Shown here one piece after another: positions 25,610 through 43,512 of a stretch of DNA of 64,000 bases; position 1 is the stretch's first letter; every line of letters begins with the position of its first letter. The DNA comes from Burkholderiaceae bacterium (GTDB lineage Bacteria; Pseudomonadota; Gammaproteobacteria; Burkholderiales; Burkholderiaceae_C), in the NCBI GenBank assembly GCA_026125795.1, contig JAHCKM010000001.1, forward strand, positions 1,364,001-1,428,000. The letters run 5' to 3'. The notes beneath the pieces are model-generated. The model made no database searches. It was not told where the DNA came from and saw only the letters and a program-made list of their open reading frames with translations. Both the position numbers and the translations under genes were made by a program.

Positions 25610-26183
25610 GAACGCATGCCCTTTGGTTGATCGCGCGGCGCGGCGGGCGGTACCCGGGGTGGGCTCCTACTGGCGCGGTCGGCGCTGCGCGCCGACTTCG
25701 CTGCGGTGCTCGCGCCACAAGGGCGGCTGCGATGCCGCTCGCAAGCGGCGCTCCCGCGCCGCTGCCTCATGGCTTCTCGCCGGTCCGGCCCTGGCGGGCC
25801 AGACTTCCCCTTGCGGCGCTGCGCTCCTCGCCGCGCCACAAGTCGCCCACCCCGAATACCGCCCGCCGCGCTGAGACGCTCGTGGTCCTCCTCGATGCAA
25901 ACCTCGGTGGTGCTGGCAAAGCCGTGGTCGGGTGTGCGCCGGCAGCGACATCTGCGGCGCCGAGGACCGCAGAGCGCATGGCCGCGCGCGCGCAGCGCGC
26001 GCTTCCACATCTGACTCGCGTCGACTGTTCGAGCACAGCGAACGCAGTGAGCGGAGCGAGTTTCGACGCGGGCCATGCGATCGAGGACCGGAGGGGAGTC
26101 GGCCGCAGGCCGACCGCTGCAGCCGAGCGCCGGCGCATACCCGGCCGCGGCTTTGCTCGCTCGGTCTCTCAAAGGGACTGCGT
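25610..26183. repeat. structured intergenic repeat, copy A, with extra insert
   Basis: The core (25638-25871, 234 bp) has 27-bp terminal inverted repeats (25638-25664 and 25845-25871, two mismatches). Inside are hairpins: GTCGGCGC-TGC-GCGCCGAC (25678-25696), AGCGGCGC-TCCC-GCGCCGCT (about 25744-25763) and one near 25782-25803. Copy B at 43189-43423 is the same length with compensatory stem changes. Similarity continues to about 25912. Then comes about 225 bp absent from copy B, with its own GC hairpins (for example GCGCGCGC-GCA-GCGCGCGC near 25983-26001), before homology resumes at GCATACCCGGCCGCGG (26138-26153) up to the livG ribosome site. No protein-coding gene is evident. Confidence 0.8.
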
Positions 26184-26996
26184 GTGAGCGACACCACGCC
26201 GTTGCTCACCGCGCGCGACCTCTCCGTCCGCTTCGGCGGTGTGCTGGCCGTCAACAAGGTCAGCTTCGACGTGATGCGCGGCGAGGTGTTCACGCTGATC
26301 GGGCCCAACGGTGCCGGCAAGACCACGGTGTTCAACCTGATCAGCCGCATCTACAACCCAACCACCGGCGAGCTGACGTTCGAAGGCCAGCGGCTCAACG
26401 ACCTGCCGCCGCACAAGGTGGCTGCGCTCGGCATCGCGCGCACGTTCCAGAACATCGAGCTGTTCGAGAACGCCTCGGTGCTGCAGAACTTGCTGATCGG
26501 CCACCACGTGCACCAGAGCAGCGGTTTCGTCGCCAATCTGTTCTTCACACCCGCCGCGCGCCGCGCCGAGCGCGAGGCGCGCGCACAGGCCGAGCGCGTG
26601 ATCGAGCTCCTGGAGCTGCAGCACCACCGCGATTCGCTGGTGCACGGGCTGCCGTACGGCGTGCGCAAGGTGGTGGAGGTGGCGCGCGCGCTGTGCATGG
26701 GGCCGAAGCTGCTGCTGCTCGACGAGCCGTCGTCGGGGCTCAACGTCGAAGAGACCGAGGACATGGCCTGGTGGATCGCCGACATCCGCAAGGAGCTCGG
26801 CATCACCGTGCTGATGGTGGAGCACGACATGAGCCTGGTGTCGCGCGTGTCCGATCGGGTGCTGGCGATGAACCAGGGCGAGGTGCTGGCGCTGGGCACG
26901 CCGACCGAGGTGCAGTCGCATCCCGGCGTGATCGAGGCCTACCTCGGCTCCACCGACGACATGTCGTCGCTGCGCCGGCAAAAGGTGGCGGCATGA
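26184..26996 (+). CDS. livG: branched-chain amino acid-type ABC transporter ATPase LivG
   Basis: A 270-residue ABC ATPase. Walker A is GPNGAGKT near residue 40, the Q-loop follows in ARTFQNIELFEN, the LivG-type signature is reduced to LPYGVRKVVEVARAL (ABC motif), and Walker B is LLLLDEPSSGLN. The switch histidine lies in VEHDMS. The GTG at 26184 follows AAAGGG by about 10 bases; an ATG start is not available near the family N-terminus. Works as a heterodimer with LivF under LivHM. Separated from livM by repeat copy A. Confidence 0.88.
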   Translation: MSDTTPLLTARDLSVRFGGVLAVNKVSFDVMRGEVFTLIGPNGAGKTTVFNLISRIYNPTTGELTFEGQRLNDLPPHKVAALGIARTFQNIELFENASVLQNLLIGHHVHQSSGFVANLFFTPAARRAEREARAQAERVIELLELQHHRDSLVHGLPYGVRKVVEVARALCMGPKLLLLDEPSSGLNVEETEDMAWWIADIRKELGITVLMVEHDMSLVSRVSDRVLAMNQGEVLALGTPTEVQSHPGVIEAYLGSTDDMSSLRRQKVAA

Positions 26997-27000
26997 TCGG

Positions 27001-27066
27001 CGCACGGCCGCTCCGAAGCCGATCGCTCCCCCTCGGGGGGACGGGCCGCAGGCCCAAGGGGGCGGC
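27001..27066. repeat. short GC hairpin element between livG and livF
   Basis: TCCCCC (27027-27032) pairs with GGGGGA (27036-27041), followed by GCC-GCA-GGC and AAGGGGG. This CCCCCTCGGGGGG type of sequence is a common small intergenic element in Burkholderiales; the final AAGGGGG also serves as livF ribosome site. A related CCCCCCCGAGGGGG occurs upstream of the LysR gene at 34768. Confidence 0.6.
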
Positions 27067-41736: not shown

Positions 41737-41749
41737 CCTCGCGCCACGG

Positions 41750-42469
41750 ATGCCGATCCTCGCCCTGCATGGCGTCAGCAAGTCCTATGGCGCGCTGAAG
41801 GTCACCGATGACATCTCGCTGGCCGTCGAGGCCGGCGAGACACTGGGCATCCTCGGCCCCAACGGCGCCGGCAAGACCACGCTGTTCAACCTGATCGGCG
41901 GCGACGTGCGCGCCGATGCGGGCCGCATCGAGTTTCAAGGCCGCGACATCTCGTCGCTGCCACCGCACCGGCGCTGCCGGCTCGGCCTGGGGCGCACCTA
42001 TCAGATCCCGCAGCCGTTCGGCCAGATGACGGTGTTCGAGAACCTCGTCGCTGCCGCCTGCTTCGGTGGCGGCCAGCGCGAGCGCGACGCCTGGCACACC
42101 GCCAGCGACGTGCTCGAGCACACCGGACTGCAGGCGCAGGCCAACCGGCATGCCGGCAGCCTGACGCTGCTGAACCGCAAGCGCCTCGAGCTGGCGCGCG
42201 CGCTGGCCACCAGGCCGAAACTGCTGCTGCTCGACGAGATCGCCGGCGGACTCACCGAGCACGAGGCGCGTGTGCTGATCGACGAGCTGGCGCGCATCAA
42301 GGCGCAGGGCATCACGATGGTGTGGATCGAGCACGTGGTGCACGCGCTGCTGGCCATCGCGGACCGCCTTTTCGTCATCAACTTCGGCCAGCCGATCGCG
42401 CTCGGCGCGCCGCAGGCGGTGATGGCCGATCCGGAAGTGCAGCGCGTGTACCTGGGCGTGGAAGCATGA
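41750..42469 (+). CDS. livG: liv-type ABC transporter ATPase (LivG-like) of the hydroquinone operon
   Basis: A 239-residue ABC ATPase. Walker A is GPNGAGKT near residue 38; Q-loop region GLGRTYQIPQPFGQ; the ABC signature is degenerate (SLTLLNRKRLELARAL), as often in LivG-like proteins; Walker B LLLLDEIAGGLTEHE has I and A in place of the usual P and S; switch histidine in WIEHVVHAL. It starts 13 bp after the binding-protein gene and overlaps livF by four bases. Confidence 0.85.
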   Translation: MPILALHGVSKSYGALKVTDDISLAVEAGETLGILGPNGAGKTTLFNLIGGDVRADAGRIEFQGRDISSLPPHRRCRLGLGRTYQIPQPFGQMTVFENLVAAACFGGGQRERDAWHTASDVLEHTGLQAQANRHAGSLTLLNRKRLELARALATRPKLLLLDEIAGGLTEHEARVLIDELARIKAQGITMVWIEHVVHALLAIADRLFVINFGQPIALGAPQAVMADPEVQRVYLGVEA

Positions 42470-43170
42470 GCGCGGCGCTGGTCGAGACGCACGGGCTCAC
42501 TGCGCGCTACGGCGACGCGCAGGCGTTGTTCGGCATCGACCTGCGGCTCGACGCGGGCGAGGTGGTGGCGATCATCGGTGCCAACGGCGCGGGCAAGAGC
42601 ACGTTCCTGAAAGCGCTCACCGGCCTGGTGAAGTGCGCGCGCGATGCGGTGCTGTTCAAGGGGCAGGCAGTCGGATCGATGGCGCCGGGCGCCATCGTGC
42701 GCATGGGGCTGGCCATGGTGCCCGAGGGGCGGCGCCTGTTTCCGTCACTCAGCGTGGAAGAGAACCTGCTGATGGGCGCGTTCGCGCAGCGGCCGGGACC
42801 GTGGAATCTGAAGCGCCTGTTCGCGCTGTTTCCCATCCTCGAACAGAAGCGGCGCAGCCCGGCCACGTCACTTTCCGGCGGGCAGCAGCAGATGGTGGCG
42901 ATCGGCCGCGCGCTGATGGGCAACCCGGAAGTGCTGCTGTGCGACGAGCTGAGCCTGGGGCTGGCACCGATCGTGATCAAGGAAATCTACGAAGCCGTGC
43001 CGGCGCTGACGCGTGAAGGCATGAGCCTGGTGATCGTCGAGCAGGACGTATCGGTGGCGCAGCGCGTGTCGCAGCGCGTGGTGTGCTTTCAGGAGGGGCG
43101 CGTGTCGCTCGAAGGTGCAAGCAACGAGTTGACGCGTGAGCAGATCAGTCGTGCGTACTTCGGTGTTTGA
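42466..43170 (+). CDS. livF: liv-type ABC transporter ATPase (LivF-like) of the hydroquinone operon
   Basis: A 234-residue ABC ATPase. Walker A GANGAGKST near residue 38, LAMVPEGRRLFPSLSVEENL (LivF Q-loop region), ABC signature LSGGQQQMVAIGRAL, Walker B VLLCDELSLGLAP (cysteine in place of leucine, L in place of P), switch QDVSVAQ. ATGA overlap with livG. The next gene of the transporter, livH, lies beyond a 342-bp gap occupied by repeat copy B. Confidence 0.85.
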   Translation: MSAALVETHGLTARYGDAQALFGIDLRLDAGEVVAIIGANGAGKSTFLKALTGLVKCARDAVLFKGQAVGSMAPGAIVRMGLAMVPEGRRLFPSLSVEENLLMGAFAQRPGPWNLKRLFALFPILEQKRRSPATSLSGGQQQMVAIGRALMGNPEVLLCDELSLGLAPIVIKEIYEAVPALTREGMSLVIVEQDVSVAQRVSQRVVCFQEGRVSLEGASNELTREQISRAYFGV

Positions 43171-43512
43171 CTTTTTGGGTATGGCGCGGCGCGGCGGCCG
43201 GTACCCGGGGTGGGCTCCTACTGGGTCGGTCGGCCTTTCAGGCCGACTTCGCTGCGGTGCTCACTCCGAGAGGGCGGCTGCGATGCCGCTCGCAGCGGCC
43301 CTGAACGGGCCACTGCTTCATGGCTTCTCGCCGGTCCGGCCCCTGCGGGTCCGGACTTCCCCTCTCTGCGTTGCGCTCCTCGCCGCCCCACAAGTCGCCC
43401 ACCCCGGGTACCGCCCACCGCGCAGAGACGCTCGTGGTGTTCCTCCAGGAAGACCTCGGTGGTGCCGCATACCCGGCCGCGGCTTTGCCTCGCTCGATCC
43501 AAGGGGGGATCG
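43171..43512. repeat. structured intergenic repeat, copy B
   Basis: Core 43189-43423 (235 bp) with 27-bp terminal inverted repeats (43189-43215 and 43397-43423); the inner 16 bp GGTACCCGGGGTGGGC are perfect. Internal hairpins: GTCGGCCT-TTC-AGGCCGAC (43229-43247), GGCCC-TGAAC-GGGCC (about 43297-43311) and GTCCGG...CCGGAC with CCC/GGG (43334-43356). Relative to copy A (25638-25871) the first stem changes C-G to G-C and T-A to C-G, and the second C-G to G-C, keeping pairing. Similarity continues to the livH ribosome site (AAGGGGGG at 43501-43508). Spurious frames here are not genes. Confidence 0.85.

Follow-up and report, generated by a model that had tools for sequence, protein, structure and literature searches.

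What is the strongly folded sequence that twice parts the genes of liv-type transport operons in the 64,000-nt stretch of Burkholderiaceae DNA analysed here (the window), and how did it come to lie there? An earlier note, made from the letters alone, described a two-copy element between permease and ATPase genes and left open whether it was a mobile miniature element, a processed RNA or a regulatory RNA. We compared its copies within the source genome, with related species and across the family.

Results

The repeat unit is a pair of inverted modules

Own-genome copies gave a consensus in which the conserved unit is ~540 bp long and has sharp ends. The unit consists of two back-to-back folded modules: domain B is a module, M, and domain A is its reverse complement, rc(M), so that the two halves are homologous and inverted. 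M has a folded, branched core of ~155 nt in which the motif CGAGnAnCGCAG occurs at two places, ~121 nt from each other. A covariance model of M, built without any domain A sequence of the source genus and run on 158,630 bases, found the cores listed in Table 1. The core of domain B is absent from copy 2.

The length of 234/235 bp previously given for the element is that of domain A only. Closing arms of domain A measure 41 nt in the two window copies and are 85% and 83% complementary, and by eye 25 of the outer 27 positions pair in each copy. The 27-bp inverted repeats of the earlier note are thus real pairing arms, but what they close is a single domain. The two termini of the ~540-bp consensus, compared by eye, show no complementarity, which leaves the whole unit without terminal inverted repeats. 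The three internal hairpins reported for each copy were seen in both.

Table 1 Features of the two element copies and their flanking genes (window positions; genes called with a codon-usage script)
Feature	Position	Strand	Evidence or remark
livM-type permease gene, 5' neighbour of copy 1	24533..25609	+	PF02653
Complete element, copy 1: A-linker-B = rc(M)-linker-M	25631..26167	+	nhmmer with own-genome model; sharp consensus ends
Domain A, copy 1 (element of the earlier note), closed by ~27-nt arms	25638..25871	+	folds better on minus strand
M core in domain A, copy 1	25686..25839	-	covariance model, 31.5 bits, E 2.3e-5
Second M motif in domain A, copy 1	25701..25712	-	CGAGnAnCGCAG (CGAGCACCGCAG)
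First M motif in domain A, copy 1	25819..25830	-	CGAGnAnCGCAG (CGAGGAGCGCAG)
Linker joining domains A and B, copy 1	25872..25915	+	
Domain B, copy 1	25916..26156	+	better fold on plus (mRNA) strand
Closing arms of domain B, copy 1	25916-25943/26129-26156		28-nt, 89% complementary
M core in domain B, copy 1	25952..26108	+	covariance model, 145.9 bits, E 9e-32
First M motif in domain B, copy 1	25961..25972	+	CGAGGACCGCAG
Second M motif in domain B, copy 1	26082..26093	+	CGAGGACCGGAG (one letter off)
livG-type ATPase gene, 3' neighbour of copy 1	26184..26996	+	PF00005, PF12399
livF-type ATPase gene, 5' neighbour of copy 2	42466..43170	+	PF00005
Shortened copy 2, made up of domain A, linker and last domain B arm	43181..43490	+	right end by eye
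Domain A, copy 2 (second element of the earlier note)	43189..43423	+	
M core in domain A, copy 2	43237..43391	-	covariance model, 36.9 bits, E 1.3e-6
3' arm remnant of domain B, copy 2	43466..43488 (C1:1407466-1407488)	+	
livH-type permease gene, 3' neighbour of copy 2	43513..44373	+	PF02653

The two halves keep the folds of opposite strands

Both window copies folded better than all 100 of 100 dinucleotide shuffles (copy 1, 537 nt, z -9.2; copy 2, 319 nt, z -5.7), and the compensatory base differences noticed between them were confirmed. Two-sided changes were present in 69/124 pairs, against 39.9+-3.0 in shuffles and 18-27 in slid controls. Pairing held in 95.9% of cells, compared with 83.8% for shuffles and 35-44% for slid controls.

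A strand test of the whole element looked symmetric (G-U 25, A-C 45) and pointed away from RNA; splitting the element by domain reversed this outcome. Alifold energies were -76.6 in sense and -106.5 in antisense for domain A, and -115.9 and -81.5 for domain B. Among 90 same-genus copies, cells in common pairs held G-U 29 and A-C 126 in domain A and 47 and 19 in domain B, while counted by pair columns the strand bias was small (20 vs 23 in domain A, 21 vs 15 in domain B). For M cores the energies were -54.7 on the M strand and -45.8 on the opposite strand, the M strand folding better in 29/31; its fold's pairs contained G-U 38 and A-C 4, and the common pairs 18 and 4. RNase P RNA, used as a control, gave G-U 19 and A-C 4 in common pairs and energies of -103.1 vs -85.3, from 15 of 26 matches (L359 and 10 remoter matches excluded), including one row from another family of the same order. 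Each half therefore keeps the fold of one strand, like RNase P RNA, which supports the proposed selection on single-stranded structure, whether RNA or ssDNA; that the two halves keep opposite strands goes beyond what the earlier note had seen. Covariation together with strand-specific wobble pairs fits RNA or ssDNA.

Fifty copies lie in the source genome, in liv operons and elsewhere

The element is not confined to two copies: nhmmer with the own-genome model detected 50 dispersed copies at >40 bits in the source genome (G000): both halves are present in 34, A without the B core in 12 and B alone in 2, and the other 2 are fragments. B is a better M than A, yet copies of A without the B core outnumber those of B only, 12 vs 2.

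The placement between liv genes was as described, with copies at livM|livG and livF|livH and liv genes flanking both sides. A liv-specific element was rejected, ABC-transporter genes being found at 4/10 other junctions examined, two of those liv-like, and functions at the junctions examined were unrelated to one another. Permease/ATPase junctions were at most mildly enriched, at 3/44 own junctions vs 11/803 background pairs (p 0.03), and accounted for 0/35 junctions in two related species (G004 and G005). Post hoc, a membrane-protein gene bordered 22/44 element junctions vs 173/803 in the background (p 6e-5), and 16/35 in the same two species (p 0.003, also post hoc).

The livM-livG gap is 574-745 nt here, while in 60/78 other named loci these genes lie <=11 nt apart or overlap. 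No intrinsic terminator or sigma-70-type promoter was found on either strand of the two window copies, so the operon can be read through. That the element sets gene ratios, as had been suggested, received no direct support. A CGCAATGGATCACTGA-like box before the start codon occurred at 9/45 own element sites vs 3/225 shuffled; it was not generally enriched in named loci (18 matches vs 14 shuffled), and nothing was therefore built upon it.

Orientation follows transcription in the source genus

At co-directional junctions of three species of the source genus (G000, G004 and G005), 76 copies were sense and 5 antisense, the sites being partly shared by descent. Two other genera (G010 and G049) had 8 antisense and 1 sense; these counts exclude split pieces, of which G005 had three and G049 one. 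The top 27 loci of other genera, after three same-genus loci had been taken out by hand, comprised 10 antisense, 9 sense, 4 other and 4 undefined. The sense bias and the excess of membrane-protein genes are compatible with a role in mRNA but do not prove one. Since covariation exists and orientation in the source genus follows transcription, the copies do not show the neutral drift or random insertion that the earlier note had set against its claim.

Sites are shared between species while sequences are homogenised within them

Ten sites of the source genome are common to related species, and the element was missing at 2/7 syntenic junctions in G005, which are empty sites. At 52-60% identity, a liv match in that genome was judged a paralogue and excluded; the contig with the true orthologue was outside the comparison. 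Orthologous junctions share the element, yet the sequences group by species, and an AU test rejected site-wise grouping in 9/9 cases. Copies <500 nt or <180 bits were dropped from the trees. The careful tree kept 15 of the 34 source-genome copies and left out 19; in a quick tree all 34 likewise formed one clade. Flanking spacers of most orthologous sites failed to align, and short spacers lacking the element aligned no better, so spacer alignment does not decide between old and repeated insertion. At two shared junctions the element has opposite orientations in different species, which favours, for these two at any rate, either repeated insertion or an inversion.

The Y1 transposase domain (PF01797) had 0 matches in the 98.9% complete genome, the control search being positive in 5/14 known genomes, and a REPIN moved by a RAYT was rejected on this ground. 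Directly at the element ends of 37 source-genome sites there were no identical 4-, 5-, 6- or 8-mers; equal 2-mers numbered 5 and 3-mers 2 (null 2.9 and 0.9), and flank similarity was not in excess (largest z 1.8). A target duplication >= about 8 nt, or a duplicated junction, was accordingly rejected at these sites, no test being in excess; because the position of the ends is uncertain by a few nt, short duplications may have escaped notice. Blastn against 72,556 plasmids gave no match to the window element or to two pairs from other genera, and against 50,697 phages none to one pair. On these searches a plasmid- or phage-borne element was rejected, and the absence fits vertical inheritance. 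Between the modules of L376 and L385, the widest pairs inspected, no gene was predicted. The suggestion of a mobile miniature element is thus plausible: copies are dispersed and two empty sites exist, but terminal repeats of the unit, a long duplication and Y1 were not found.

M is widespread in the family

With 12 candidates per genome scored under strict filters, so that the counts are floors, the covariance model placed M in at least 144/250 genomes and at least 91/141 genera of the family, and in at least 14/16 genomes reached via named loci. Among the matches listed, M neighbours <1 kb apart were divergent in 64/64 cases, and the distance between their starts was in most cases 261-271 or 304-356 nt. 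Mismatched loops and motifs of M are conserved across genera; domain A, read on its minus strand, has GTAGGAGC in most same-genus rows and GTATGAGC or GCATGAGC in the rows from other genera.

Rfam 15 had 0 matches in the window and none at E<=0.1 for three further loci (L362, L373 and L119); on the element itself, E<=5 admitted only two matches, far under their cut-offs. A described RNA family was ruled out, there being no significant Rfam 15 match. An exact 23-mer scan of a genome-contig collection returned 0 matches, and searches of the open-licence PMC literature listed no paper recognisable as a description of this repeat family.

Discussion

The module M, which pairs back to back, makes up a sizeable unannotated share of these genomes; it occurs in at least some two thirds of the genera sampled and has no significant Rfam 15 match. 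The family offers a testable system for the spread of large non-coding repeats with no evident transposase to move them, for the likeness within species of dispersed repeats at old shared sites, and for the effect of a ~540-nt folded spacer on a bacterial operon.

Several known repeats invite comparison. REPINs and BIMEs are described, in the text available, as short non-autonomous extragenic repeats in inverted pairs, with singles too, many per genome (PMC3116915, PMC2817692), built from REP sequences of about 20-37 nt (PMC2817692). The window family likewise pairs two repeats inversely as one unit; unlike REP by that description, its modules have a branched core of ~155 nt, a 5' GTAG-type tetranucleotide is not a conserved feature of M, and its source genome yielded no Y1/RAYT. 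BRE of Bordetella and Comamonadaceae is given as ~90 bp, mostly intergenic, GC-rich and present in several to tens of copies, with past mobility suspected and tandem copies at some loci (PMC3110155). Going by that description, BRE shares with the window family the bacterial order, the mostly intergenic position, the richness in GC and the range of copy numbers. It differs in its ~90 bp and its tandem loci, and may or may not be an inner piece of M. The Chunjie MITE of Geobacter is reported as a 235-bp operon insertion with tens of copies, and Correia/NEMIS of Neisseria as folded repeats within mRNA, reportedly cut by RNase III (both PMC10969869). Chunjie resembles the window family in operon insertion and in tens of copies; it has terminal inverted and direct repeats, and its description, as far as available, gives no module pair. 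Correia/NEMIS, compared by description, shares the folded repeats but comes from a different lineage. Its size and ends set it further apart from the window family.

We give roughly even credence to a chromosomal, non-autonomous, vertically inherited repeat that resembles a REPIN, has modules of RNA size and turns into an mRNA spacer, by a mechanism that we infer. Both DNA strands read 5'-rc(M)-linker-M-3', so each would present one properly folded M close to its 3' end. This M could be the recognition structure for a putative enzyme or host factor responsible for dispersing the copies and for their likeness within one genome; the element would then act as a REPIN does, with modules several times the size of REP. 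In operons of the source genus, copies would persist chiefly at places where their presence in the mRNA is tolerated or put to use, and in practice they may be structured spacers parting genes that often abut or overlap in relatives. Against this stand the ten sites shared between species, since a repeat that only transposes need not share junctions, the sense bias, which is not general (G010 and G049 being mostly antisense), the source-genome copies that have A but lack the core of B, the better M (12, vs 2 with B only), and the searches that found no Y1, no duplication >= about 8 nt and no terminal repeats of the unit.

A host-serving intercistronic RNA, in which an mRNA domain is cut by RNase III or E or shields the upstream message and so yields unequal subunit amounts, is a tentative alternative of lesser but appreciable probability. 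The 76-to-5 sense bias, the sites shared between species, the long livM-livG gap, the post hoc excess of membrane-protein genes and the possible read-through speak for it; yet domain A, which most copies contain, preserves the fold of the non-mRNA strand, the B core is missing in 12/50 source-genome copies, copy 2 included, two other genera are mostly antisense, and the functions at the sites are unrelated. We doubt that the element is a BIME-like chromosomal DNA element, folded or bent and bound by gyrase, IHF/HU or an architectural protein, with operon insertion incidental. Strand-specific tolerance of G-U like that of RNase P RNA, and orientation with transcription in the source genus, would be unexpected for a double-stranded binding site, although the many intergenic copies, the lack of plasmid or phage matches and, among the matches listed, the inverted pairs with preferred spacings suit it.

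More doubtful still is a reading in which M represents a structured RNA class not described before and rc(M)-M a bacterial SINE-like retroelement served by a reverse transcriptase in trans. A transcript of either strand would end in a folded M, a candidate priming or recognition site; the enzyme supplied in trans might spread and homogenise copies through RNA, and the operon sense bias in the source genus could reflect copies having been made from mRNA or kept on it. It is very unlikely that the element is a classical MITE whose long diverged ends are M and which a DDE transposase moves in trans: equal 4-mers at the drawn ends (0/37 sites), duplications >= about 8 nt and plasmid or phage matches were all lacking, and by eye the terminal sequences are not inverted repeats, even if dispersed, non-coding inverted modules and two empty sites agree with it and the imprecise ends leave room for short target duplications. 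Least probable, in our judgement, is that the covariation stems from palindrome repair or conversion of DNA and involves no selection on folding. Homogenisation within species and the similar strand counts over the whole element would follow from such correction, but it ought to erase recurrent G-U pairs, and the domain-wise strand bias is strong and opposite in A and B, with mismatched loops and motifs persisting across genera.

A minor observation concerns Acidovorax. The covariance model of M gave two weak matches on 12 Acidovorax loci, neither at the livM|livG junction, and the spacer at that junction has another sequence, with no match to the element profile; it is nonetheless hairpin-rich, ~165-190 nt long, and lies at the same operon junction as copy 1.

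Element anatomy and copy number

The stretches at 25638-25871 and 43189-43423 carry the arms, hairpins and compensatory differences that the earlier note described, and both fold better than 100/100 shuffles. Their liv setting was likewise confirmed, copy 1 lying between livM and livG and copy 2 between livF and livH. The claim of two copies did not hold: the genome from which the window comes (6.57 Mb, 98.9% complete), when searched, at once returned about forty near copies. A profile search of fetched stretches of this genome gave 50 copies at >40 bits: 34 with both halves, 12 with domain A and without the core of domain B, 2 with domain B only, and 2 fragments. 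The proposed 234/235-bp element is a real structured stretch, but alignment of 27 full copies with their flanks revealed a larger unit of ~540 bp with sharp ends, consisting of domain A, a linker and domain B; the inverted repeats called terminal enclose domain A alone. Scanning both strands of the two window copies gave no promoter-like or intrinsic-terminator-like sites. Some copies, among them G000_C1_1232858 (locus L035) and several in the same-genus genomes G005 and G004, show additional modules of 75-85 nt or have the 5' end repeated, so the element is modular below the level of its folded unit, module M, too.

Features of the two element copies, and loci with a different livM-livG spacer
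Feature	Position or loci	Strand	Basis or form
Copy 1, element	25631-26167		
Copy 2			Shortened: domain A, linker and last arm of domain B kept
M core in domain B, copy 1	25952-26108	+	Covariance model, E 9e-32
M core in domain A, copy 1	25686-25839	minus	Covariance model, E 2.3e-5
M core in domain A, copy 2	43237-43391	minus	Covariance model, E 1.3e-6
Hairpin-rich livM-livG spacer	L199, L203, L205, L207, L208, L218, L220, L221, L226		

Conserved structure and folding strand

The structure alignment, of 29 sequences, covered five genomes of the window's genus and two other genera; RNAalifold predicted 124 pairs in it, with 95.9% of cells paired versus 83.8% in shuffles. Two-sided changes occurred in 69 pairs, compared with 39.9 ± 3.0 in shuffled alignments and 18-27 for slid structures, and 16/17 helices contained at least one such pair. 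The element structure is conserved across genera.

In real RNA a G-U pair is better tolerated than an A-C pair. As a control, 15 RNase P RNA sequences of related bacteria went through the same procedure and gave 19 G-U versus 4 A-C among pairs common to both strand folds. The whole element appeared symmetric (G-U 25, A-C 45). Splitting the domains revealed opposite strand preferences: domain A favours the antisense fold (RNAalifold −106.5 versus −76.6 for sense, the sense fold being more stable in 1/29), and domain B the sense fold (−115.9 versus −81.5; 29/29). Wobble counts agree with these preferences. The agreement is clearer when cells rather than pair columns are counted; by columns, G-U versus A-C was 7 versus 15 (A) and 12 versus 7 (B) in the 29-sequence set, and 20 versus 23 (A) and 21 versus 15 (B) in 90 same-genus copies.

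Module M and its distribution

Domain A, when reverse-complemented, aligns with domain B, with scores far above shuffled in genera whose domain A is less diverged. The margin in the window's own copy is small (103.2, shuffled maximum 101.6), and the covariance-model match is therefore the better evidence for this genus. In module M, two CGAGnAnCGCAG motifs flank ~110 nt that contain two hairpin arms; the motif starts are 117-125 nt apart in most. The 31 M cores, taken from several genera, aligned well and show an RNA-like strand bias: the M strand gave −54.7 versus −45.8 for the opposite strand and was more stable in 29/31 cores, with G-U 38 versus A-C 4 (18 versus 4 for common pairs). The covariance model was built from these cores, none of which is domain A of the window's genus. 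At L119 and L120 (genome G026), module pairs differ from copies of the window's genus in being edged by inverted repeats of the type TTTTGGC...AAGACAAA.

M is widespread in the family. At E ≤ 1e-5 at least 144/250 genomes and at least 91/141 genera sampled from the family contain it, and so do at least 14/16 genomes reached through named loci, among them Ideonella sp. H5_PRO6, Piscinibacter sp., Rhizobacter Root404, Acidovorax soli, and Polaromonas and Variovorax records. It was not found among the matches listed for Ramlibacter montanisoli and Comamonadaceae OS-4. Modules <1 kb apart were divergent in 45/45 and 19/19 pairs among the matches listed. Searches with blastn gave no match in plasmids to the window element or to pairs from two other genera, and none in phages to one module pair of another genus.

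Orientation relative to neighbouring genes

In the window's genome, 44/50 copies lie between co-directional genes, 42 sense and 2 antisense. The corresponding counts were 14 versus 2 in G004 and 20 versus 1 in G005, and 5 versus 0, 1 versus 0 and 1 versus 1 in the poorer same-genus genomes G001, G002 and G003. Since co-directional neighbours are common in general (872/1108 gene pairs in 1.2 Mb of G005), the element's place is ordinary and its orientation is not. Replication direction by itself is an unlikely source of this ratio. Copies in G010 and G049, genomes of two other genera (L104-L113), are mostly antisense to their neighbours (8 versus 1), opposite to what the window's genus shows; the 27 top loci of other genera, after removal of three same-genus loci, comprise 10 antisense and 9 sense. 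The sense bias is a property of the window's genus.

Site history and kind of element

At 10 sites of the window's genome, the same gene pair in another species has the element (a fragment in one case). One of these sites is livM-livG, where G001, G004 and G005 have the element and the G003 contig is broken within it. Seven sites, taken from the side of the window's genome and including two fragments and one shortened copy there, could be followed by synteny into the 1.2 Mb of G005 that was fetched, where the element is present at 5 and absent at 2; at one empty site the genes, read by eye, overlap as ATGA. Element sequences group by species, 15/15 copies of the window's genome falling in one clade (100/99), and holding orthologous copies together, in groups named from flanking genes before tree building, was rejected in 9/9 tests (p ≤ 3.5e-4). 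Copies of G005, G004 and G001 do not form one clade each. One old copy, G005_C22_288471, does not belong to the main clade of its species; the spacer upstream of it can be aligned with the corresponding one in the window's genome as far as the element edge. Different species have opposite orientations at the same junction (G004_C8_366927 and G000_C2_185577; G005_C28_93118 and G004_C1_551407). From the shared sites, species-wise sequences and flipped copies, we read this history as old sites with within-genome homogenisation and some repeated insertion or inversion; repeated targeting of these junctions alone may also account for it.

REPINs, inverted pairs of small hairpins, are thought to be moved by RAYT, a Y1 transposase (excerpts of PMC3116915). 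They are nearest in form to the element, also an inverted pair, although its modules exceed theirs several-fold in size and are RNA-like, and the search detected no RAYT; it appears to work like a REPIN, yet two of three defining REPIN features were not seen as tested. Inspection by eye found no terminal repeats of the whole unit, a comparison of the flanks gave no target duplication of ~8 nt or more (shorter ones could still exist), the own genome yielded no Y1 transposase, and Rfam gave no significant match. Together with the REPIN-like form, these results lead us, with evenly divided confidence, to read the element as a chromosomal, non-autonomous repeat; its M modules would be recognised by a putative factor, the folded single strand being the recognition structure. 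That the element is instead an operon RNA serving the host seems rather doubtful.

Fragments of the element are a familiar sight in Burkholderiales genomes, in many cases as spurious 'SLRSLRS'-rich ORFs, so annotators must already have come across parts of it. Literature searches among open-licence PMC papers found no description of the family. BRE, a ~90-bp repeat of Bordetella and Comamonadaceae (excerpts of PMC3110155), may be related, the two being set side by side by description only.

Genes at element junctions

Among 10 shared junctions examined besides the window's, 4 are at ABC-transporter genes; others include fliP-fliQ, ileS-lspA, hydrogenase-4 subunits and a gene before ruvC. A membrane-protein gene adjoins 22/44 element junctions against a background of 173/803, and 16/35 in G004 and G005; the test was post hoc and classed the genes by a simple hydrophobicity rule, and many of the sites are common by descent. 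The excess is mostly on the upstream side.

In 60/78 named relatives livM and livG are ≤11 nt apart or overlap. At this junction several Acidovorax and related loci have another hairpin-rich spacer, ~165-190 nt long, which does not match the M model. At 9/45 own element sites (for example L077, L031 and L028), a box like GCGCAATGGATCANTGA, with a three-codon reading frame within, lies immediately 5' of the start codon; similar strings occur at some Acidovorax livG starts (L199, L207 and L209).
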